Of a stretch of 64,000 nt of DNA, positions 6,673 to 57,191 are shown piece by piece. The translations under genes and the position numbers were made by a program. This stretch comes from Hoyosella rhizosphaerae. GTDB lineage: Bacteria; Actinomycetota; Actinomycetes; Mycobacteriales; Mycobacteriaceae. Below the pieces are notes generated by a model. It had not been told where the DNA came from. It made no database searches and saw nothing but the letters and a program-made list of their open reading frames with translations. The stretch lies in the NCBI RefSeq assembly GCF_014643175.1, contig NZ_BMJH01000001.1, positions 62,001 to 126,000 on the forward strand, in the 5' to 3' direction. Numbering within the stretch: the first letter of the stretch is position 1; the number at the start of each line of letters is the position of its first letter.

Positions 6673-7668
6673 GTGACAACTGACCGATCAGATCTTCCCA
6701 ATGTCAGCGACGCCACAGTGAGCGAAATCGGCGAATTTTCCGTCATCGCCCGCGCCACGGACCAGCGTCAACAGCCCGCAGATGTGCAGGTGGGGCCCGG
6801 CGACGACGCCGCAGTGGTCACGATCGATGGTGCTGCTGTTGTGGCATGCGTGGACACCCTCGTTGAGGGTAGGCATTTTCGTGTGGACTGGTCGACGGGA
6901 AGCGACATAGGGCGCAAAGCGATCGCACAAAATGCGGCAGATCTTGCTGCGATGGGTGCGATACCAGTGACGTTCCTTGTGTCCTTAGGGTGCCCCGCAG
7001 ATACTTCGGTGGCGTTCACCGACGATCTGGTAGCGGGGCTATGGGCTGAGGCCGCCAGATTTGGAGCCGGGATTAGTGGCGGCGACTTGGTGCAGTCCGA
7101 TCAAATCACTGTGTCGGTGACCGCTTTGGGCTCTTTGCAGGGGCGAACGGCTGTCCTGCGTAGTGGAGCACAACCCGGCGACGTTGTTGCCGTTGCGGGT
7201 GAACTCGGAAAGTCAGCAGCAGGGCTTCATCTGCTGGCCAACATGAACTCCGATTCGTTGGCACCTTTTGTTGACTGCGTGCATGTTCATCGTGTGCCCG
7301 ACCCCCCGTATACCGCAGGGATCGCGGCAGCGAATGCCGGTGCGCATTCCATGATTGACACATCGGACGGGTTGCTCGCGGACCTATCTCATGTGGCTGC
7401 AGCCTCGCAGGTGCGGGTCGACATAGAAACGGCGTTGCTCCCGATACCGTCGGCGGTAGCTGAAGTGGCAGAAATGGCGGGGGTCGACCCGTTGGATTGG
7501 GTACTCGGCGGTGGAGAAGACCACGCGCTCGTGGCGACTTTTGCGTCTCATCAGACTGTGCCCGCACCATTTAGGCGGGTCGGCAGCGTGTCTGCCGGTT
7601 CCGGCGTCACCGTCGATGGGGCGCGCGTCGAACAGCGTGGGTGGACGAGTTGGCGCCGCACTGAGTGA
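6673..7668 (+). CDS. thiL: Thiamine-monophosphate kinase
   Basis: Phosphorylates thiamine monophosphate to thiamine diphosphate, the final step of cofactor B1 synthesis. Family hallmarks are GPGDDAAVV near residue 40, DTLVEGRHFR, the AQNAADLAAMGA helix, and the C-terminal GGGEDHALV. The start GTG 6673 gives an N-terminus closely resembling the mycobacterial protein (VTTDRSD). No clear ribosome site precedes it, so the mRNA may be leaderless. The longer upstream frame would overlap DUF3515 and is rejected. The product has 331 aa, the normal length. Confidence 0.93.
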   Translation: MTTDRSDLPNVSDATVSEIGEFSVIARATDQRQQPADVQVGPGDDAAVVTIDGAAVVACVDTLVEGRHFRVDWSTGSDIGRKAIAQNAADLAAMGAIPVTFLVSLGCPADTSVAFTDDLVAGLWAEAARFGAGISGGDLVQSDQITVSVTALGSLQGRTAVLRSGAQPGDVVAVAGELGKSAAGLHLLANMNSDSLAPFVDCVHVHRVPDPPYTAGIAAANAGAHSMIDTSDGLLADLSHVAAASQVRVDIETALLPIPSAVAEVAEMAGVDPLDWVLGGGEDHALVATFASHQTVPAPFRRVGSVSAGSGVTVDGARVEQRGWTSWRRTE

Positions 7669-33685: not shown

Positions 33686-33765
33686 TAACCGGGCGAATGT
33701 TGTGAGTGTGCGGAGCTGATTCGTGCGCCGCAACACCACGCAGTAAGCTAGTGGTGCGTCGATGC

Positions 33766-33982
33766 CGTGCGGGAGAGTCCTCGCCGAACAGGTCCACATT
33801 GTGGTCCTAGTTTGAGTGGGGCGCCGAAGGAGCAACACCTCTCCGACAATCTCTCAGGCACCCAGGACCGTGCGAGCTGCGACGCCTCTGGAAAGTGGTG
33901 GCTTTGACCGCCCGCCCACGGGGAAAGGCGCACGCGCGCTGAATCTCTCAGGCGCCATTCTTGGCGGCGACAGAGGGGGAGG
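33766..33982 (+). promoter_or_regulatory. Tandem glycine riboswitch upstream of gcvP
   Basis: Two glycine-aptamer units lie in tandem in the 345-bp gap before gcvP. The first has GCGGGAGAGTCC, then GGCGCCGAAGGAGCAA and the hallmark AATCTCTCAGGCA (about 33766-33862). The second has CCTCTGGAAAG, GGGGAAAGGCGC and again AATCTCTCAGGCGC (about 33881-33980), closed by GACAGAGG. This is the known cooperative architecture that switches on glycine catabolism at high glycine. The gcvP start codon is about 50 bases downstream, so control could be translational or by termination. Confidence 0.93.
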
Positions 33983-49880: not shown

Positions 49881-50291
49881 TCAGCGAAACCGTGGCCCGC
49901 GACCGCGGCTTCGAGGTTCGGATTCGCGGCGTTCAAGGGCGGCCAGGGCGTCTCGCAAAGCGTCAACTTCGGTGGCGTCAGCCCGCTCGACGAAGTGCAC
50001 CAGTGCTGCAGCACGTCCACCGGACTTTTCTGCCTGCTTCAACGCGTCCATCATGAGGTCCGCAACAAGTTCTTCGCGAGCATTAACCGGCGTATAGCGG
50101 TAGGCGCGTTCGCGTCGCTCTTGGGCGACAAGATTCTTTTTCGCCAAGCGTTGTAGCACCGTCATGACGGTTGTGTACGCCAGTGAACGATGCTGCGCCA
50201 ATGCCTCGTGGACTTGGCGTACGGTCTGTGGTTCAGGTGCGGACCACAGGTGATCCATCACTGCCCGTTCGAGTTCTCCGAGACCTGCCAT
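49881..50291 (-). CDS. blaI: BlaI-type transcriptional repressor
   Basis: Winged-helix repressor of 136 aa of the BlaI/MecI/CopY family, counterpart of Rv1846c. LGELERAVMDHLWSAPEPQTV and the recognition helix SLAYTTVMTVLQRLAKKNLV are typical. The dimerisation part has the RLALAALEERESE-like helix (LRDALAALERRESE). In mycobacteria BlaI represses itself, the M56 peptidase and beta-lactamase-linked genes. A matching operator sits 35 bp upstream. M56 follows after 58 bp. Confidence 0.93.
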   Translation of the reverse strand: MAGLGELERAVMDHLWSAPEPQTVRQVHEALAQHRSLAYTTVMTVLQRLAKKNLVAQERRERAYRYTPVNAREELVADLMMDALKQAEKSGGRAAALVHFVERADATEVDALRDALAALERRESEPRSRGRGPRFR

Positions 50292-50369: not shown

Positions 50370-51215
50370 TCACCCTATTGCATCCGCGGTGATCAAATCC
50401 GCGTGCACGTGCCTCGTTCCGATGGGAACAATTAGGGGCGCGTCTGAGGTGGGGTCGTCGATGACGGCGGCGCGCAAACCGAATGCCTCATCAAGCAGGT
50501 CGGCGGAAATGACATCACGTGGTGCACCGGCGGCAATGATCGCGCCATCTTTCATCACCACAATGTGATCGCTGTAGCGCACGGCAAGGTTCAGGTCGTG
50601 CAGCACCATCACCACGGTGCGGCTCATGTCTGTATGCAACCTGTCGATCAGATCCAACACGTCGATAGCGTGCGACAGGTCGAGGTAGGTGGTTGGCTCG
50701 TCGAGGAGCAAGATGTCTGTTCCTTGAGCCAGCGCCATCGATATCCACACTCGTTGCCTCTGCCCGCCCGAGAGTTCATCGACAGGTCGGTCTGCTAGGT
50801 CAGTGATGCCCGTTAATGCGAGCGCGGCCGCAACCTCCGCCTCGTCGTCGGCGGACCATTGGCGAATCCACGACTGATGTGGATGGCGTCCTCGCGATAC
50901 TAAGTCTGCGACAGCAAGGCCTTCAGGAGCGATCGGTGCTTGGGGGAGCAAACCCACAATGCGGGCGACATCTTTAGTTCGCATAGTGGTGATCGTCTTG
51001 CCGTCGAGAACAATTGCGCCGTCACGCGGCTTCAGCAGCCGGCCCAACGCACGAAGGAGGGTGGATTTACCGCACCCATTGGGGCCGATGATGGTCGTAA
51101 TTTCACCGGGGCGGATCGCCATGCTGAGCTTCTCAACAATGACGCGATCGCCGTAGTTCAACGTGATGTTGTCGGCAACGAGTCTCGGCGGTGAAGACAT
51201 TCCGTAATCAGTCAT
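50370..51215 (-). CDS. Iron-siderophore ABC transporter ATP-binding protein
   Basis: FecE/FepC-type ATPase of 281 aa that powers siderophore or heme import. Walker A is GPNGCGKST, the Q-loop lies in LLPQAPIAPEG, the signature is LSGGQRQR, Walker B ILLLDEPT, and the switch histidine VLHDLN. The start ATG 51215 overlaps the permease gene by 4 bp; a much longer upstream reading is antisense-like and rejected. It is last in the operon fusion permease-permease-ATPase. Confidence 0.93.
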   Translation of the reverse strand: MTDYGMSSPPRLVADNITLNYGDRVIVEKLSMAIRPGEITTIIGPNGCGKSTLLRALGRLLKPRDGAIVLDGKTITTMRTKDVARIVGLLPQAPIAPEGLAVADLVSRGRHPHQSWIRQWSADDEAEVAAALALTGITDLADRPVDELSGGQRQRVWISMALAQGTDILLLDEPTTYLDLSHAIDVLDLIDRLHTDMSRTVVMVLHDLNLAVRYSDHIVVMKDGAIIAAGAPRDVISADLLDEAFGLRAAVIDDPTSDAPLIVPIGTRHVHADLITADAIG

Positions 51216-52315
51216 CCGGTTACCCTTCGGTTTGCGCGGATCAGGAGGTACAGCAAGAACGGGCCACCGAGCGCTGCGGTCACAATGCCCGCGGGAAGTT
51301 CTACGGGTAACAGCGTCCGTGCTGTGATGTCCGCAGCTAACACGAGGCACGCGCCGGTAAGACCTGACGCGAGAATCGGTGGGGTTGGGGTGCGCAATAG
51401 TCGCATAGCCACCTGTGGAGCCATCAGCCCGACAAAGCCAATGGGGCCCGCCGCTGACACACTGGCTGCGGTTAGCGCGACCGCCGTCAGGAGCAAAATG
51501 GTCTGCGTGCGGTGGAGGCGCACGCCCAGAGCCTGGGCGGTGTCGTTGCCCAACCGTAGTGCGCCCATCGAAAAGCTCGCACCCACCGCGATCGCACCAA
51601 ATACTGTTGTGGTGACCAAAAGTGGGGTGAAGTGTCGCCAATCCCTACCATTGAGCGACCCCACGAGCCACGCCTGGGCTTGGGCGACATCGTTGATGTC
51701 CGAGACGATCAACATCCAGTACACCAATGCCTGGCAGATGGCCGTGACGGCTATGCCAATAAGTATCAGTCGGAAGCCGTCTACACCTCCCTTCCACGCA
51801 AGGGCATACAGAATGACGGCGGCAGTGATACCGCCAATCAATGCGGCGACGGGCAGTCCCATGAGTCCAAGCGTCGACATGACCACACCGGTGGTTCCAC
51901 CGCTCAGCACAATGAGGGCTACAGCGGTGACGCTTGCCCCTGCACTAATCCCAAGAATGTCGGGGCTTGCGAGAGGATTTCGAGTCAGGCTTTGTGTGAG
52001 TGCCCCCGCGATGCCAAGCGAAAGTCCGACAAGAGCGCCGACGAGTGAGCGTGGGAGTCGAAGGTCCATCACGATGAACCGCTCCATCCGGGTGCCGCCA
52101 CCAAGCAGAACTTCCACCACCGCTGTTATCGATAGCGGGAAATCGCCGCGCCCAATGTTGATGCACAGCAGTAGGAAAAGTAGCGCGCCGAGTAGTGCGG
52201 TCGCGATCACCATTGGCGCGCGCAGCACGAGGGACACGGGCCCTAGCCGGAACGACTTTCGGCTAGGGATGGTGCGGTGGTCCCCGGAAACCTGCCGTTG
52301 AAGCGTCGTTGTCAC
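51212..52315 (-). CDS. FecCD-family iron-siderophore permease
   Basis: Polytopic permease of 367 aa with about nine to ten helices. Conserved blocks are LRLPRSLVGALVGLSLGIAG, TQSLTRNPLASPDILGISAGA and the C-terminal GPIGFVGLMAPQVAMRLL, the EAA-like loop contacting the ATPase. GTG 52315 and its stop overlap both neighbours by 4 bp, giving tight translational coupling. It pairs with the fusion permease encoded just upstream. Confidence 0.93.
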   Translation of the reverse strand: MTTTLQRQVSGDHRTIPSRKSFRLGPVSLVLRAPMVIATALLGALLFLLLCINIGRGDFPLSITAVVEVLLGGGTRMERFIVMDLRLPRSLVGALVGLSLGIAGALTQSLTRNPLASPDILGISAGASVTAVALIVLSGGTTGVVMSTLGLMGLPVAALIGGITAAVILYALAWKGGVDGFRLILIGIAVTAICQALVYWMLIVSDINDVAQAQAWLVGSLNGRDWRHFTPLLVTTTVFGAIAVGASFSMGALRLGNDTAQALGVRLHRTQTILLLTAVALTAASVSAAGPIGFVGLMAPQVAMRLLRTPTPPILASGLTGACLVLAADITARTLLPVELPAGIVTAALGGPFLLYLLIRANRRVTG

Positions 52316-53763
52316 AAGCTCACCAGCTTGCGGCGGCGAACAAGCGCAATAAAGAACGGCCCGCCCACGAGGGCTAGCACGATGCTCAGTTGTAGCTCCC
52401 CTGGGCGAATAACAACCCGGCCAACAACATCAGCCGTGAGCAGCAGTATCGCGCCGCACAGCGCGGCGACGGGGATGAGCCACCGATAGTCAGGGCCGGT
52501 GATGGCCCTAGCGATGTGTGGCACCACAAGTCCAAGGAATGCGATGACTCCGCAGGCCGCGGTGGCTGCACCTGCGAGCAACGTGATGGCAAGTACGCCA
52601 ATGATGCGGGTGCGGACAATGCTAGTGCCGAGGGAGCGAGCGACGTCGTCTCCGAGGCTCAGCAAATTCAGTCCGGGTGTGCTGGCGAACGCGAGGATCA
52701 GCCCCACGATGATGAACGGCAGCACCTGAACCAAGACGTCGAAACCGCGGCCAGCTACAGATCCGACGTTCCAAAATCGGTAGGCGTCGAGCGAGGCTTG
52801 GTCAAGCAGAACGATCGCGTTGGTCATTGCGGCTAGAAACGCGCCAACGGCGACACCCGCGAGGGGCAATGTAAGAGGGCTTGCGCCGCCGCGGCCTATT
52901 GACGCCAGAGTGAACACAGCGACGGTTGTAAGAAAGGCCCCCGCGAAGGCGAACCAAATGTATTCGATGGGTGAGCTGAGGCGGAACAGGTACACGGCGA
53001 GAACGACTGCGAACGCTGCGCCTGGGATGACGCCGAGGATTCCGGGGTCAGCAAGAGGATTGCGGGTGTGCCCTTGGATGAGGGCGCCGGCAACGCCTAT
53101 GGCAACTCCGACGGTGATGGCGAGGAGGGTGCGCGGGAAACGCAGCGTGCGCACGATGATGTCGGTGTCAATCCCCGTTGGGTGGATGAGTGCGTTCCCA
53201 ACCTCGGCGAGGCTGAGGGGTCGCGCACCGATTGCGAGGCTAGCCAGGATGAGCATTGCGAGGATGGCCGTGAGGACGGTGATTCCCGCGAGGCGTTGGC
53301 GGCGTAACGCCGTGATGCTGAGGTTGCGACGGTAGGTGATGAAGCCGTCAGCGGTGGCCTGGGTGGTGGTGACTACTTCAGCGCTGGGGCCAGCGAGGCC
53401 GAATGTGGCGCGGCGGTAGAGGTTTGGCTTTCTACCCACCGCTTGTTTGGTTGTGGTGTTGCGCAACGTGTGGTTCATGGCGTGTTTGCCGATGCTGCTG
53501 CCGGTTCTTCCTTCGAGGTGCCCGAAGTTCCATAGCGCGGTAGCGATGGTGGCGAGCAATGTGAAGGCGGTAAAGGCAACACGGTCGGCTTGGCCGCCCC
53601 CGGCTTCCTCGCGCAGAGATGTCACGATCAACGCCCCGATAAGCAGCGGGGCGCAGGTTGCGGCAACGTCGATGAGGTGAGAGGTGAGTCGTTCCCATTG
53701 TGGTGGGGGATCTGCGCGGGCCGCGCTGGGAAGCGTGTCCGCTTCCAGTGGCCGAGTGCTCAC
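52312..53763 (-). CDS. RDD-domain/FecCD fusion iron permease
   Basis: A 483-aa permease. Residues about 160-483 are a standard FecCD subunit (LRFPRTLLAITVGVAIGVAG, GHTRNPLADPGILGV, GVIAFLGLVVPHIAR). Residues about 22-115 form an extra RDD-type membrane domain: R25 and D32 in ERLTSHLID, two helices, and the loop GRTGSSIGKHAM. I choose GTG 53763 because AAAGGTGG is six bases upstream. It is the first gene of the importer operon and lies under the IdeR-like boxes. No substrate-binding protein gene is in the operon. Confidence 0.85.
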   Translation of the reverse strand: MSTRPLEADTLPSAARADPPPQWERLTSHLIDVAATCAPLLIGALIVTSLREEAGGGQADRVAFTAFTLLATIATALWNFGHLEGRTGSSIGKHAMNHTLRNTTTKQAVGRKPNLYRRATFGLAGPSAEVVTTTQATADGFITYRRNLSITALRRQRLAGITVLTAILAMLILASLAIGARPLSLAEVGNALIHPTGIDTDIIVRTLRFPRTLLAITVGVAIGVAGALIQGHTRNPLADPGILGVIPGAAFAVVLAVYLFRLSSPIEYIWFAFAGAFLTTVAVFTLASIGRGGASPLTLPLAGVAVGAFLAAMTNAIVLLDQASLDAYRFWNVGSVAGRGFDVLVQVLPFIIVGLILAFASTPGLNLLSLGDDVARSLGTSIVRTRIIGVLAITLLAGAATAACGVIAFLGLVVPHIARAITGPDYRWLIPVAALCGAILLLTADVVGRVVIRPGELQLSIVLALVGGPFFIALVRRRKLVSL

Positions 53764-53813
53764 GGGTGACCACCTTTCGTGGACCAAAGTTTTTCAGCGC
53801 GATGTTTCACGGA

Positions 53814-53856
53814 TTAGGTTACGACAGCCTAAGCTAATTAGGAAAACCAAGCCTAA
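53814..53856. promoter_or_regulatory. Two IdeR/DtxR-type iron boxes (importer side)
   Basis: TTAGGTTACGACAGCCTAA (53814-53832) and TTAGGAAAACCAAGCCTAA (53838-53856) each match the consensus of the DtxR/IdeR family at 14 of 19 positions and keep the TTAGG/CCTAA ends. They lie 51-93 bp upstream of the RDD-FecCD gene, where an iron-loaded repressor would block its promoter. Confidence 0.8.
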
Positions 53857-53899
53857 CCAAATGCCGCGACGCTATGATCCGCATCACATGATTTGCTTA

Positions 53900-53943
53900 C
53901 TTGGTAAGCCTAGCCTCAAATTACTAAGGTTAGCCTTATTGGA
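53900..53943. promoter_or_regulatory. Two further IdeR/DtxR-type boxes (FhuF-like side)
   Basis: Windows 53900-53918 (core GGTAAGCCTAGCCT, 14 of 19 consensus matches) and 53925-53943 (core AAGGTTAGCCTTA, 13 of 19) lie 41-84 bp before the FhuF-like GTG. With the first pair they make four sites in 130 bp, a dense divergent iron-control region. Confidence 0.7.
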
Positions 53944-53983
53944 AGTTGGCCAGAGTGATGGACGAAGCACGAGGAGGGATTTC

Positions 53984-54781
53984 GTGTCGCGAGCAATGAT
54001 GAAGGTGGCAGGCGGGTTTGGTGCGACTGAACCGCAAGCTGCAGGAGTGGGTGTGCACCGTGAAACCCCATTGCTAGTCAACGCTTCTGCGCTGCGGCAA
54101 ATCGATCCCGAATATCCCCGCAATTACGCGGTCACATGGATGCATCTCGAACCGCGTCGCAGGTGGTGGGCGCTTTCTTCGGCCTTGACCGAGCCGCGGT
54201 TGGAGCATATGTATGTCCGGATGCGTCGAGAACTGGGATCGCCCGAGGTCGCGGCGAGCCAGGTTGCCGCAGTGGTCATTCACGCAGTCGTCGGGCGCTT
54301 GATGGCTTCACTGGCACTCCAGGGGCGGGCGTGGGACCCGGGGCTTGACAACCTTTGGATGCACTACGACTCTGACGGCGGGGTCGATTGGGCGGGGGTT
54401 GTCGATCCCACCCTGCGCGTGTTGCCGACCGACTGTTTTGCCGGGTCGCGCGTTGCTGTCACGATGCCGAGTGAACGAGCTCTTGCGGTGTGGGCGGCTC
54501 ACAGAGTGGAGACGACGCTCAGGCCGCTTTTCTGTCGCATCTCGGAATTTACCGGCGCTGACAGTGAGCGAATGTGGTCAATGGTGGGAGAGTCCATTGT
54601 GGGGACGATGTCGTATGTGCCCACGCGGACGGGCTGTGACGACGTCAACGCCGCACGTCGCGGCCGCTTGATGCTCGATGCGATGACGGCGGCGGGATTG
54701 CCGGTGCGGTCCCATGTTTCGGCTGTGCGCCTGCGGTGGAGTTCGATGGAGCTTTCAACCCCTGTGCGCGCAACCGCGTAA
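53984..54781 (+). CDS. FhuF-like iron-associated protein
   Basis: The 265 aa from GTG 53984 follow GAGGAGGGA; a longer frame runs through the iron boxes and is rejected. The pattern resembles the FhuF/IucA-C-like siderophore-iron reductase fold: ASQVAAVVIHAVVGRLMASLALQG, LRVLPTDCF, HRVETTLRPLFCRISEFTG and ERMWSMVGESIVG. The C-terminal CC-x-C-x2-C iron-sulfur motif of FhuF is absent; the chain ends RSHVSAVRLRW and a short tail. It may release iron by another route or assist uptake. The iron boxes support an iron role. Confidence 0.55.
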   Translation: MSRAMMKVAGGFGATEPQAAGVGVHRETPLLVNASALRQIDPEYPRNYAVTWMHLEPRRRWWALSSALTEPRLEHMYVRMRRELGSPEVAASQVAAVVIHAVVGRLMASLALQGRAWDPGLDNLWMHYDSDGGVDWAGVVDPTLRVLPTDCFAGSRVAVTMPSERALAVWAAHRVETTLRPLFCRISEFTGADSERMWSMVGESIVGTMSYVPTRTGCDDVNAARRGRLMLDAMTAAGLPVRSHVSAVRLRWSSMELSTPVRATA

Positions 54782-54810
54782 GAATGTGACGGGCGTCACC
54801 CTGAAGATGG

Positions 54811-54839
54811 TTGTAATGTAGGTGAGCCTCACCTAATGT
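54811..54839 (+). promoter_or_regulatory. Iron-boxed promoter of the small RNA
   Basis: A sigma-A-like -35 TTGTAA (54811-54816) and -10 TAATGT (54834-54839) are 17 bp apart. The 19-bp window GTAGGTGAGCCTCACCTAA (54818-54836) fills the spacer: AGGTGAG-C-CTCACCT is a perfect palindrome and 16 of 19 bases match the DtxR/IdeR consensus. It is the best iron box in the window. Repression in high iron is inferred. Confidence 0.82.
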
Positions 54840-54845
54840 TGTTGG

Positions 54846-54955
54846 TGGGACGGGAAATACTACCGGGCCGAGACGGTGTCCTGAGGGCTGCAGAGACATC
54901 CGGTCCACGCCACGATGGGCCTCACGCCAAGTACGGCGTGAGGCCCATCGCTATT
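54846..54955 (+). ncRNA. Candidate iron-regulated small RNA (MrsI-like)
   Basis: Downstream of the boxed promoter the sequence has no ORF with a ribosome site for about 200 bp and reaches a strong terminator-like stem at 54913-54950. The predicted transcript is about 110 nt. In M. tuberculosis the IdeR-controlled iron-sparing RNA MrsI (ncRv11846) lies between Rv1846c and Rv1847. Here the element lies just before the Rv1847 counterpart, and blaI (Rv1846c) is 4.6 kb upstream with the iron genes between. Identity with MrsI is an inference from position and control; the 5' end is predicted from the promoter. Confidence 0.65.
54913..54950 (+). terminator. 16-bp stem-loop terminator of the small RNA
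   Basis: CGATGGGCCTCACGCC (54913-54928) pairs perfectly with GGCGTGAGGCCCATCG (54935-54950) around the loop AAGTAC. A pyrimidine-rich tail CTATTTCTC follows, not a full U-tract. It is the longest perfect stem I found in the window. Confidence 0.8.
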
Positions 54956-55044
54956 TCTCACACATCCCATGAGTGCTTTTCAGAAGCACGAGCGTATTTG
55001 CGCAACTATGGTGGAGCGCAACTACCACGCCACAAGGAGCAGCC

Positions 55045-55524
55045 GTGAGCAATTTCGATGACAACGAGCAGATTCAACGTGGAGGAGAAATCCCCGACGA
55101 ACTCCGAGAAATCCTCAGCCGAGGCATGGGCGACTACCTCGGGCTCCGGTACACCGAGATAACACCAGACTCCGTGCGCGCCCATTGGCGGATCCGTCCC
55201 GAAATGCACCAGCCAGCCGGACTGGTCCACGGTGGGGTGTACTGCGCAGTCGTCGAATCACTAGCGAGCATTGCAGGAATGGCTTGGCTGGGCGACCGCG
55301 GCCACGTCGTCGGCGTAAACAACAACACCGACTTTCTCCGTGCAGCCCGCGAAGGCACCCTGCACGCCCACGCCATCCCCATGCATCGTGGACGTCTGCA
55401 GCAGTTGTGGCTCGTCAATATCGTCGATGAACAACACCGACTCATCGCCCGCGGGCACGTTCGCCTACAAAATGTTGCAGACAGCGCAAATCTGGCAAAG
55501 CCAGAAAACAACACCACCGACTAG
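55045..55524 (+). CDS. Hotdog-fold thioesterase (PaaI-like, Rv1847-type)
   Basis: A 159-aa acyl-CoA thioesterase of the PaaI/4HBT group. The active-site helix region is HQPAGLVHGGVYCAVVESLASIAG, and VVGVNNNTDFLRAAREG and the GHVRLQN strand complete the hotdog. GTG 55045 is fixed by AAGGAG eight bases upstream. It lies about 90 bp beyond the small RNA. The acyl substrate is unknown; in menaquinone-using actinobacteria such proteins often act on aromatic acyl-CoAs. Confidence 0.9.
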   Translation: MSNFDDNEQIQRGGEIPDELREILSRGMGDYLGLRYTEITPDSVRAHWRIRPEMHQPAGLVHGGVYCAVVESLASIAGMAWLGDRGHVVGVNNNTDFLRAAREGTLHAHAIPMHRGRLQQLWLVNIVDEQHRLIARGHVRLQNVADSANLAKPENNTTD

Positions 55525-55542
55525 CTCAAACGGGCAGAAAAA

Positions 55543-55568
55543 GGCGGGCGCCACACACGGCGCCCGCC
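55543..55568 (-). terminator. Terminator between thioesterase and ndh
   Basis: GGCGGGCGCC (55543-55552) and GGCGCCCGCC (55559-55568) form a perfect 10-bp stem with the loop ACACAC, followed on the minus strand by TTTTT. It terminates ndh and may also stop the convergent thioesterase transcript. Confidence 0.85.
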
Positions 55569-55584
55569 AATCTCGCACTGCTTA

Positions 55585-56982
55585 TTAGCTAGCTTCGACC
55601 TGCTTCTGATTCAACTTGTCGTTGGCCTTCTGCGCCTCAAGTGACTCAAGGTGATCGATCGCGGTCCGCGCCGTCATCCACTGTTCGGTGACCGTAAGCT
55701 GCGCCCGCGAGTTCGTCGCGAACGTGACGATCCACGAGAACAACGTCGCTACCCGGCTCTTGAATCCCACGATGTACACCAAGTGCACCGCGAGCCACAT
55801 CAACCATCCGATAAAGCCACTGATATTGATCTTGCCGACCTGAGCCACCGCGCTGTACTTGGAAACAGCAGCCATGTTGCCCTTGTTGAAGTACTTAAAC
55901 GGCTTGCGCTCAGGCGCAGGCTCGCCCTTGGCGTTGGCCTTGACTTCCTTCTTGATGATCTTCGACGTGTACCGCCCGCCCTGGATGGCGACCTGGGCTA
56001 CACCAGGCAAACCATCGAGCGCCATCATGTCACCCACAACGAAGATGTTCGGTTCGCCCTTGATCGACAAGTCTGGATTAACCATCACGCGGCCTGCGCG
56101 GTCAATCTCGGTTCCAGTCTGATCCGACAACATCTTGCCCAGTGGGCTCGCAGCCACACCAGCGGCCCACAACTTGCAGTACGCAGTGATGCGCTGTTCG
56201 TTTCCTTCTTTGTCCTTCACGACGACGCCATACTCATCGACATCGGTGACGAAGGTGTTGAGCATGATCTCCACGCCCAACTTTTCAAGGCGGCGATGTG
56301 CCTTTCCACCCAGCTTCTCGCCAAACGGAGGAAGTACCTGCGACGCCGCATCGAGCAAAATGATGCGTGCCTGGCCTGGGTCGATGTTTCGGAACGCGCC
56401 TTCGAGCGTGTCCTTGGCTAGTTCGGCGATCTGACCAGCCATTTCCACACCGGTGGGTCCTGCGCCAACGACTACGAAAGTGAGGAGACGTTCCTGTTCA
56501 GCCGGGTCATTCGACAACTCAGCGAGCTCGAAAGCGCTCACGATCTTGCCGCGCAACTCAAGGGCGTGATCCACAGTCTTCATGCCTGGTGCGTACTTAG
56601 CGAAGTGATCGTTTCCGAAGTACGACTGCTCTGCGCCCGCTGCAACGATGAGGCTGTCGAACGACGTGACCGTGGTCTGCCCGAACTGCTCCGAGGTGAT
56701 CGTGCGGTTGGCGACATCGATATCGCTGACCTCGCCCATCAACACACGGGTGTTGCGCTGCTTCCTAAGTACCACACGGGTCGGTGCCGCAATCTCGCCG
56801 ACAGACAAAATCCCGGTAGCAACTTGGTACAGCAACGGTTGAAATAGGTGGTGTGTTGTGCGGGCGATCATGGTGATGTCAACATCAGCCCGTTTCAAAG
56901 CTTGGGTCGCAAATAATCCACCAAATCCGGATCCAATAACGACGACATGATGGCGCTGACCGTTGTCGGGCTGGTTACCCAT
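55585..56982 (-). CDS. ndh: Type II NADH dehydrogenase
   Basis: Non-proton-pumping NADH:menaquinone oxidoreductase at the inner membrane face. The 465-aa product has FAD motif VVIGSGFGGLFATQAL, the NADH motif VVVGAGPTGVEMAGQIAEL, and the conserved LWAAGVAASPL and FVVGDMMAL. Hydrophobic, amphipathic segments near the C-terminus (FIGWLMWLAVHLVYIVGF) anchor it. ATG 56982 follows GAAGGAG; the much longer upstream reading is not real. It is the Rv1854c counterpart. Confidence 0.96.
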   Translation of the reverse strand: MGNQPDNGQRHHVVVIGSGFGGLFATQALKRADVDITMIARTTHHLFQPLLYQVATGILSVGEIAAPTRVVLRKQRNTRVLMGEVSDIDVANRTITSEQFGQTTVTSFDSLIVAAGAEQSYFGNDHFAKYAPGMKTVDHALELRGKIVSAFELAELSNDPAEQERLLTFVVVGAGPTGVEMAGQIAELAKDTLEGAFRNIDPGQARIILLDAASQVLPPFGEKLGGKAHRRLEKLGVEIMLNTFVTDVDEYGVVVKDKEGNEQRITAYCKLWAAGVAASPLGKMLSDQTGTEIDRAGRVMVNPDLSIKGEPNIFVVGDMMALDGLPGVAQVAIQGGRYTSKIIKKEVKANAKGEPAPERKPFKYFNKGNMAAVSKYSAVAQVGKINISGFIGWLMWLAVHLVYIVGFKSRVATLFSWIVTFATNSRAQLTVTEQWMTARTAIDHLESLEAQKANDKLNQKQVEAS

Positions 56983-57191
56983 GACAGTCTCCTTCGATTG
57001 CAGGGCTGACGTGCTAAGCCTAGTAACGTTGCATTTGCTGCGGGAATGGGATCCCGATATTGGTCGCAACTTCTTCCACAACTTTCTCACCACGAACGGT
57101 TCGGGGGCGTAACCGGGTGCCCGAATGTGTCCAAAATCGCACCGCAGAAGCATTCGCAGCGTGAACCGAACTGCACGGGCTCCCACTCCGA

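Follow-up and report, generated by a model that had tools for sequence, protein, structure and literature searches.

The window, by which we mean the whole 64 000-nucleotide stretch that was analysed, comes from a member of Lolliginicoccus, a genus that the NCBI scheme places in the family Hoyosellaceae of the order Mycobacteriales. Its genes of interest run in the order M56, blaI, importer, FhuF-like gene, RNA, thioesterase and ndh. The blaI gene (49881-50291, minus strand) occupies the position of Rv1846c and encodes a BlaI-type repressor (Pfam Penicillinase_R), and beyond it lies a siderophore-type ABC importer (50370-53787, minus strand) consisting of an ATPase and two FecCD permeases, all recognized with Pfam. 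A FhuF-like protein is encoded on the plus strand at 53984-54781, the start being approximate and the Pfam FhuF match sub-threshold (E-value 0.0048), and the hotdog thioesterase gene in the position of Rv1847 (55045-55524, plus strand; Pfam 4HBT, TIGR00369) follows the RNA. The divergent intergenic stretch between the importer and the FhuF-like gene contains four IdeR-like boxes with 4-5 mismatches each (53814-53918), two of which overlap, and 20 shuffles of the whole window gave an average of 0.55 such matches. Because these boxes lie in the intergenic region common to the importer and the FhuF-like gene, the whole cluster looks iron-controlled.

A promoter can be read directly on the plus strand at 54811-54839, with a −35 element TTGTAA (54811-54816) and a −10 element TAATGT (54834-54839) separated by 17 nt. 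The pair is only moderately near consensus, and a strict sigma-70 scan of positions 53600-55700 returned no promoters. Its spacer carries a predicted IdeR (iron) box (54818-54836, plus strand), the core of which is a 17 bp palindrome, TAGGTGAG-C-CTCACCTA, at 54819-54835 (TAGGTGAGCCTCACCTA in full) that begins inside the spacer and reaches two bases into the −10 element. When the 64 kb were scanned with what we take to be the IdeR consensus, this palindrome was the only match with three or fewer mismatches, and 100 shuffles gave none. The host encodes IdeR (E-value 5e-108 to PDB 1fx7, IdeR), and the same layout of a box within the promoter was seen by eye in the loci of relatives. Downstream of the promoter we predict a small RNA of about 110 nt (54846-54957, plus strand), with both ends predicted, from its fold and from a covariance model; the fold from 54846 has an energy of −58.1 kcal/mol and a z-score of −5.7, equalled by none of 200 shuffles. 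A terminator-like stem-loop of 16 bp with a 6 nt loop lies at 54913-54950 (plus strand) and is followed by the tail CTATTTCTCA. The original prediction, drawn from this DNA alone, had described a −35/−10 pair with a palindromic iron box and, after about 65 bp, a perfect 16 bp stem, and all of these elements are present as described; to this we add that the approximately 65 nt between promoter and stem contain a conserved core hairpin at 54865-54906.

The core hairpin (42 nt, plus strand) agrees with the single-sequence fold of the window copy and is composed of three stems, P1 (54865-54870 with 54901-54906), P2 (54875-54880 with 54895-54900) and P3 (54881-54883 with 54891-54893). These are capped by a 7 nt apical loop, AGGGCUG (54884-54890), in which the 6 nt GGGCUG is the proposed seed on the grounds of its conservation and of its complement in candidate targets. 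Among 48 distinct cores from related loci, 8 of the 15 pairs have changed on both sides; the covariation score of the core is reached by none of 500 shuffles, and all five measures also beat every slid register, an outcome that is the same as that of an earlier count on 45 cores. Loci L156 and L157 (genomes G061 and G036, genus g34) provide an example, with P3 formed by CCG/CGG rather than CUG/CAG, so that both sides are changed, around the same AGGGCUG loop. Of 60 loci that the covariance model found, a set weighted towards the best-scoring ones, 58 retain the loop, with L112 and L115 as the exceptions, and 55 retain the 13-mer CTGAGGGCTGCAG; the 60 are the 63 model-found loci minus L114, L116 and L117, whose matches (E-value 0.14 or greater) we judged to be due to chance. 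An earlier count of that fixed 13-mer was partly circular because the pattern used to pick loci contained most of it, hence the recount on loci found by the model only. The alignment is nearly gap-free from Lolliginicoccus to Mycobacterium, with the loop and the P1-P3 architecture common to all. In P2 one pair is unpaired in 25 of the 48 cores and another in 40, RNAalifold unaided retained just 10 pairs of the core, and the cores of L020 and L021 prefer alternative structures when folded as single sequences; P2 is, as judged from the aligned cores, partly open outside Lolliginicoccus. We note that in the mycobacterial copy L158 (G188) a GTTT/AAAC stem allows an otherwise bulged A to be paired.

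In 31 genomes fetched through the thioesterase, several genera were seen to have an iron box and then a strong hairpin ahead of the thioesterase gene, and a reading of these stretches revealed the core common to them. The covariance model, R1, was built from nine aligned cores with 15 pairs, none of the nine coming from Mycobacterium (g41). It matches the host genome with an E-value of 2.1e-11, the host copy being among the loci from which the model was built. In the taxonomic family it has matches, nearly always in single copy, in 274 of the 401 genomes searched, which represent 19 of 31 genera; it also matches 334 of 396 Mycobacterium genomes, the remaining 62 having no R1 match under strict filters. 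In an order-wide draw of 249 genomes there were matches in 33, and all 33 lie inside the one taxonomic family. These large searches (401, 396 and 249 genomes) were all run with strict filters, under which weak matches are lost. A rescan with laxer filters of 16 genomes (nine Mycobacterium and seven from other genera of the taxonomic family) found something at an E-value of up to 1 in eight, with values below 0.01 only in G730, G481, G703 and G333; G479 has no R1 match better than 0.97. Two R1 matches are present in each of G157, G167, G216, G501 and G617, and second copies of the RNA in these genomes are possible.

A separate scan of named genomes with a core pattern produced 24 stretches, including ones from Lolliginicoccus suaedae, L. 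levis and L. lacisalsi and many from Gordonia and Williamsia, together with one from Mycobacterium and one from a record titled Kitasatospora. The last of these (L092, Kitasatospora arboriphila NRRL B-24581) is 96 % identical to Williamsia muralis over 7.7 kb and is probably mislabelled or mixed. Two queries gave no matches in phages, and both found a single plasmid record, Gordonia polyisoprenivorans p174, in which box, core and stem are all readable and the order is gnd, M56 peptidase, blaI, the unannotated RNA, thioesterase, an aldolase/citrate-lyase gene and ureABC. In Rfam release 15 neither the window copy nor any of the copies scanned from six relatives corresponds to a named family, and with a relaxed threshold the matches at the window copy all fell far under the gathering scores of their families. 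Elsewhere in the window Rfam identifies a glycine riboswitch (33760-33880, plus strand; RF00504, E-value 1.9e-07), and in L086, from Mycobacterium sp. MYCO198283, a 5_ureB_sRNA (6945-7236, minus strand; E-value 9.9e-18) downstream of the RNA locus.

A loose loop motif identified 115 distinct places, of which 96 with a stem before the loop were kept and 19 without one were dropped, L158 being kept by hand. An IdeR box with six or fewer mismatches is found upstream in 94 of the 96, its first base 41-89 nt ahead of the P3 CTG; of 1605 control positions drawn at random from these loci, 55 had such a box 20-140 nt upstream. The core is followed by a perfect stem of 12 bp or more in 83 of the 96, as against 12 of the 1605 random positions at slightly narrower settings. 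By eye, six of the 13 loci without such a stem (L036, L040, L051, L065, L068 and L122) have hairpins that are interrupted or that escaped the count for another reason, the sequence of L043 is masked by N, and L033, L099, L110, L111, L115 and L149 have none of 12 bp or more. Locus L104 (G622) contains the full loop and a terminator-like stem but no recognizable IdeR box, and its core, which begins right after an upstream reading frame, is perhaps co-transcribed with that frame. Two Mycobacterium genomes of 3.3 Mb, G513 (L115) and G481 (L111), carry decayed copies in which the middle P3 pair is broken and no terminator stem was found; L115 has one changed loop base, a good IdeR box and no match in the thioesterase search, and L111 has a poor box and two weak pieces of thioesterase.

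The thioesterase gene is the nearest detected downstream neighbour of the RNA in 93 of 98 loci, about a dozen of which had been fetched through the thioesterase itself; the original placement of the RNA before an Rv1847-type thioesterase gene is upheld. On the other side the nearest detected neighbour is the FhuF-like gene at 56 of the 98 loci and blaI at 40, the latter arrangement being found in Gordonia, in Williamsia and at some mycobacterial loci, and from these counts the importer looks inserted in Lolliginicoccus; it is present in L. lacisalsi (L087) and absent in L. suaedae (L074). The original proposal that an inserted iron importer separates the RNA from blaI agrees with this, except that the FhuF-like gene also lies between the two.

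The loop complement, CAGCCC, occurs within 75 nt before the bfrA start in 18 of 26 mycobacterial leaders (30 loci were fetched, and a start codon could be assigned in these 26) and in 3.2 % of 5417 windows. It is tied with the ribosome-site hexamer TAGGAG as the most enriched 6-mer in these 26 leaders, in several of which the complement is CAGCCCTCA at −26 or −27 and in others of which it lies 43-65 nt upstream; the starts were called with a rule that misplaces a few of them by some bases. In a larger set of 39 mycobacterial genomes, nine of them new, and with a different way of finding starts, CAGCCC is present in the bfrA leader of 24 of the 33 with the RNA and one of the six without it (Fisher p 0.016, related genomes being non-independent), so that the leaders of nine RNA-bearing mycobacteria are without the hexamer. 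The single exception among the RNA-less genomes is G333, itself a weak R1 match (E-value 0.0035). Among the three bfrA leaders read in other RNA-bearing genera, CAGCCC is found in L176 and in neither L172 nor L175. Exact counting of complements within Mycobacterium thus separated RNA-bearing from RNA-less genomes, whereas pairing energies between the loop and ferritin-family leaders from different genera failed to tell them apart. The host has two ferritin-family matches, one of the ferritin type (L168) and one of the Dps type (L256), with no BfrA found and CAGCCC in neither leader. Bacterioferritin, named in the original prediction for a target search, is supported as a target by the mycobacterial leaders and finds no counterpart in the host; the absence of a bfrA target there bears on targets, not on descent.

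Other candidate targets in the host are few. A search of its own genome with CAGCCCTCAG found seven sites besides the RNA, hardly more than the five given by a reversed-pattern control. One of the seven matches the RNA over 13 identical nt and lies upstream of a ferredoxin-reductase-like gene; it was rejected, as the strand is wrong for pairing with that mRNA. Scanning of the window for frames with a ribosome site and CAGCCC near the start returned two, a frame opposite the importer (at −73) and ndh (at −26). The ndh leader contains the loop complement in CAGCCCTGCA (56999-57008, minus strand), which is not significant alone and whose 5′ end is 26 nt upstream of the ndh start codon (56982). 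CAGCC(C/U) is present 26 nt before the ndh start in all four Lolliginicoccus species, and the site is also present in L093 (Gordonia hirsuta) and G015. We rate ndh as a weak candidate because the site is absent in the other 15 of the 21 RNA-bearing genomes read, and because G006, the single RNA-less genome read, has CAGCCT there. NDH-2 contains no iron, and targeting of ndh would therefore be a regulation of respiration rather than plain sparing.

The MrsI RNA of mycobacteria is described in reviews, in the parts that deal with it, as an RNA of about 100 nt between blaI and Rv1847 with an IdeR site and a terminator, and with a 7 nt apical loop whose 6 nt seed acts on bfrA, its established target (PMC8628891, PMC11188477, PMC12101431). 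The window RNA shares the position, with the thioesterase gene directly downstream and blaI beyond the importer and the FhuF-like gene; it has an IdeR box in its promoter, as read from sequence alone, and its predicted ends (54846-54957) and stem (54913-54950) correspond to a length of about 100 nt with a Rho-independent terminator. AGGGCUG, in both the fold and the alignment, matches the wording of the reviews for an apical loop of 7 nt holding a 6 nt seed, and the pairing of seed and bfrA leader is found by complementarity for the family in Mycobacterium (18 of 26 leaders, and 25 of 39 in the larger set), though not in the host. The window RNA is very probably an orthologue of MrsI, which is the best explanation of the whole, the comparison with MrsI being made through the description in the reviews. 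The original prediction had left open whether the RNA is orthologous or merely analogous and had called for a covariance-model search; the search, run with R1 from its nine loci, strongly supports orthology, since a model without Mycobacterium sequences finds the Mycobacterium copies, with the same place, box, loop and covarying stems. Of its two further options, that the RNA is much older than mycobacteria or was re-evolved at the same place, the comparison across 19 of 31 genera bears out an older origin: the RNA appears, by its distribution, to be older than Mycobacterium, and an ancestor of many genera of the taxonomic family probably already had the RNA with its box, in the same position next to the thioesterase gene.

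That two unrelated RNAs arose independently at one place under an iron box has, in our estimation, next to no likelihood. Iron boxes are common beside siderophore genes, and the four further IdeR-like matches about 0.9-1 kb off in the window would suit such an origin, but the shared loop, the P1-P3 architecture and the nearly gap-free alignment between Lolliginicoccus and Mycobacterium argue against it, and since the seed and its bfrA target were recovered independently we file the RNA as MrsI and not as a re-evolved analogue. Nor is it at all likely that the transcript belongs to the thioesterase mRNA, as its 5′ leader or an attenuator, and is not a free trans-acting RNA: the constancy of the downstream neighbour at 93 of 98 loci would be expected of a leader, but the distance from loop to thioesterase gene varies from less than 60 to more than 500 nt, 83 of 96 loci have a strong terminator-like stem after the core, and the conserved loop matches the leader of bfrA, a gene located elsewhere in the genome.

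The region might also encode a small leaderless protein, as a 67-codon frame not mentioned in the original prediction crosses the RNA from a GTG start at 54845 to a stop that overlaps the thioesterase start. Open in the window, this frame also runs through the loop without a stop in 96 of 97 loci; but a second frame does so in all 97, and only 35 of 97 have, in the 70 nt upstream, an in-frame start without an intervening stop. Among congeners, the frame closes 21 nt ahead of the loop in L004 and has different ends in L005 and L006, and the stem pairs change on both sides together. The 67-codon frame looks non-coding, and we consider a protein product extremely improbable.

Taking the window RNA as an MrsI orthologue, we suppose that under iron sufficiency Fe-bound IdeR would sit on the box in the promoter spacer and block transcription. 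As iron falls the promoter would fire and yield an RNA of about 110 nt ending at the 16 bp stem, which would display the loop AGGGCUG on a hairpin whose structure is backed by covariation. In the host the loop may pair with CAGCCC(U) upstream of the start codons of its targets and lower their expression; for bfrA in Mycobacterium the comparison shows the match of seed and target. Some Lolliginicoccus would later have acquired the siderophore importer, at the site between blaI and the FhuF-like gene. It is conceivable, if rather doubtful, that this is the ancestral MrsI of much of the mycolic-acid lineage, its loop fixed and its targets rewired, and that in Lolliginicoccus the loop acts on other leaders, including that of ndh.

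MrsI (ncRv11846) is the closest known system. Both RNAs lie beside an Rv1847-type thioesterase gene, have an IdeR box in the promoter (predicted for the window RNA), a length of about 110 nt and a terminator-like end, and carry a 7 nt apical loop with a 6 nt seed complementary to the bfrA leader; they differ in that the window's host is outside Mycobacterium, that the FhuF-like gene and the importer lie between the RNA and blaI, and that BfrA was not found in the host. MrsI is described as a mycobacterial RNA where the reviews treat it (PMC8628891, PMC11188477, PMC12101431), and no MrsI or IdeR-controlled RNA outside Mycobacterium is reported in the portions covered of the open-licence full texts (including PMC3388012, PMC8600241 and PMC12327846), a scope outside which the original MrsI paper falls. 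By the covariance model, the fixed loop, the covarying stems and the independent seed-target pair, MrsI is now a family in 19 of 31 sampled genera, and it offers a natural experiment in which a single fixed seed meets changing targets, one that is accessible in harmless relatives. RyhB, PrrF, FsrA and IsrR are likewise iron-repressed RNAs that spare iron by pairing with mRNA leaders, as the window RNA presumably does, although the latter is under predicted IdeR control and we claim no kinship of sequence with them. FsrA and IsrR use C-rich stretches (for IsrR, C-rich regions are noted in the part of PMC12101431 that describes it), whereas the seed of the window RNA is G-rich and lies in a hairpin loop. 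The window RNA would have a role in iron sparing similar to that of RipA of Corynebacterium glutamicum, although RipA, the DtxR-repressed agent of the iron-sparing response in that organism, is a protein and not an RNA.
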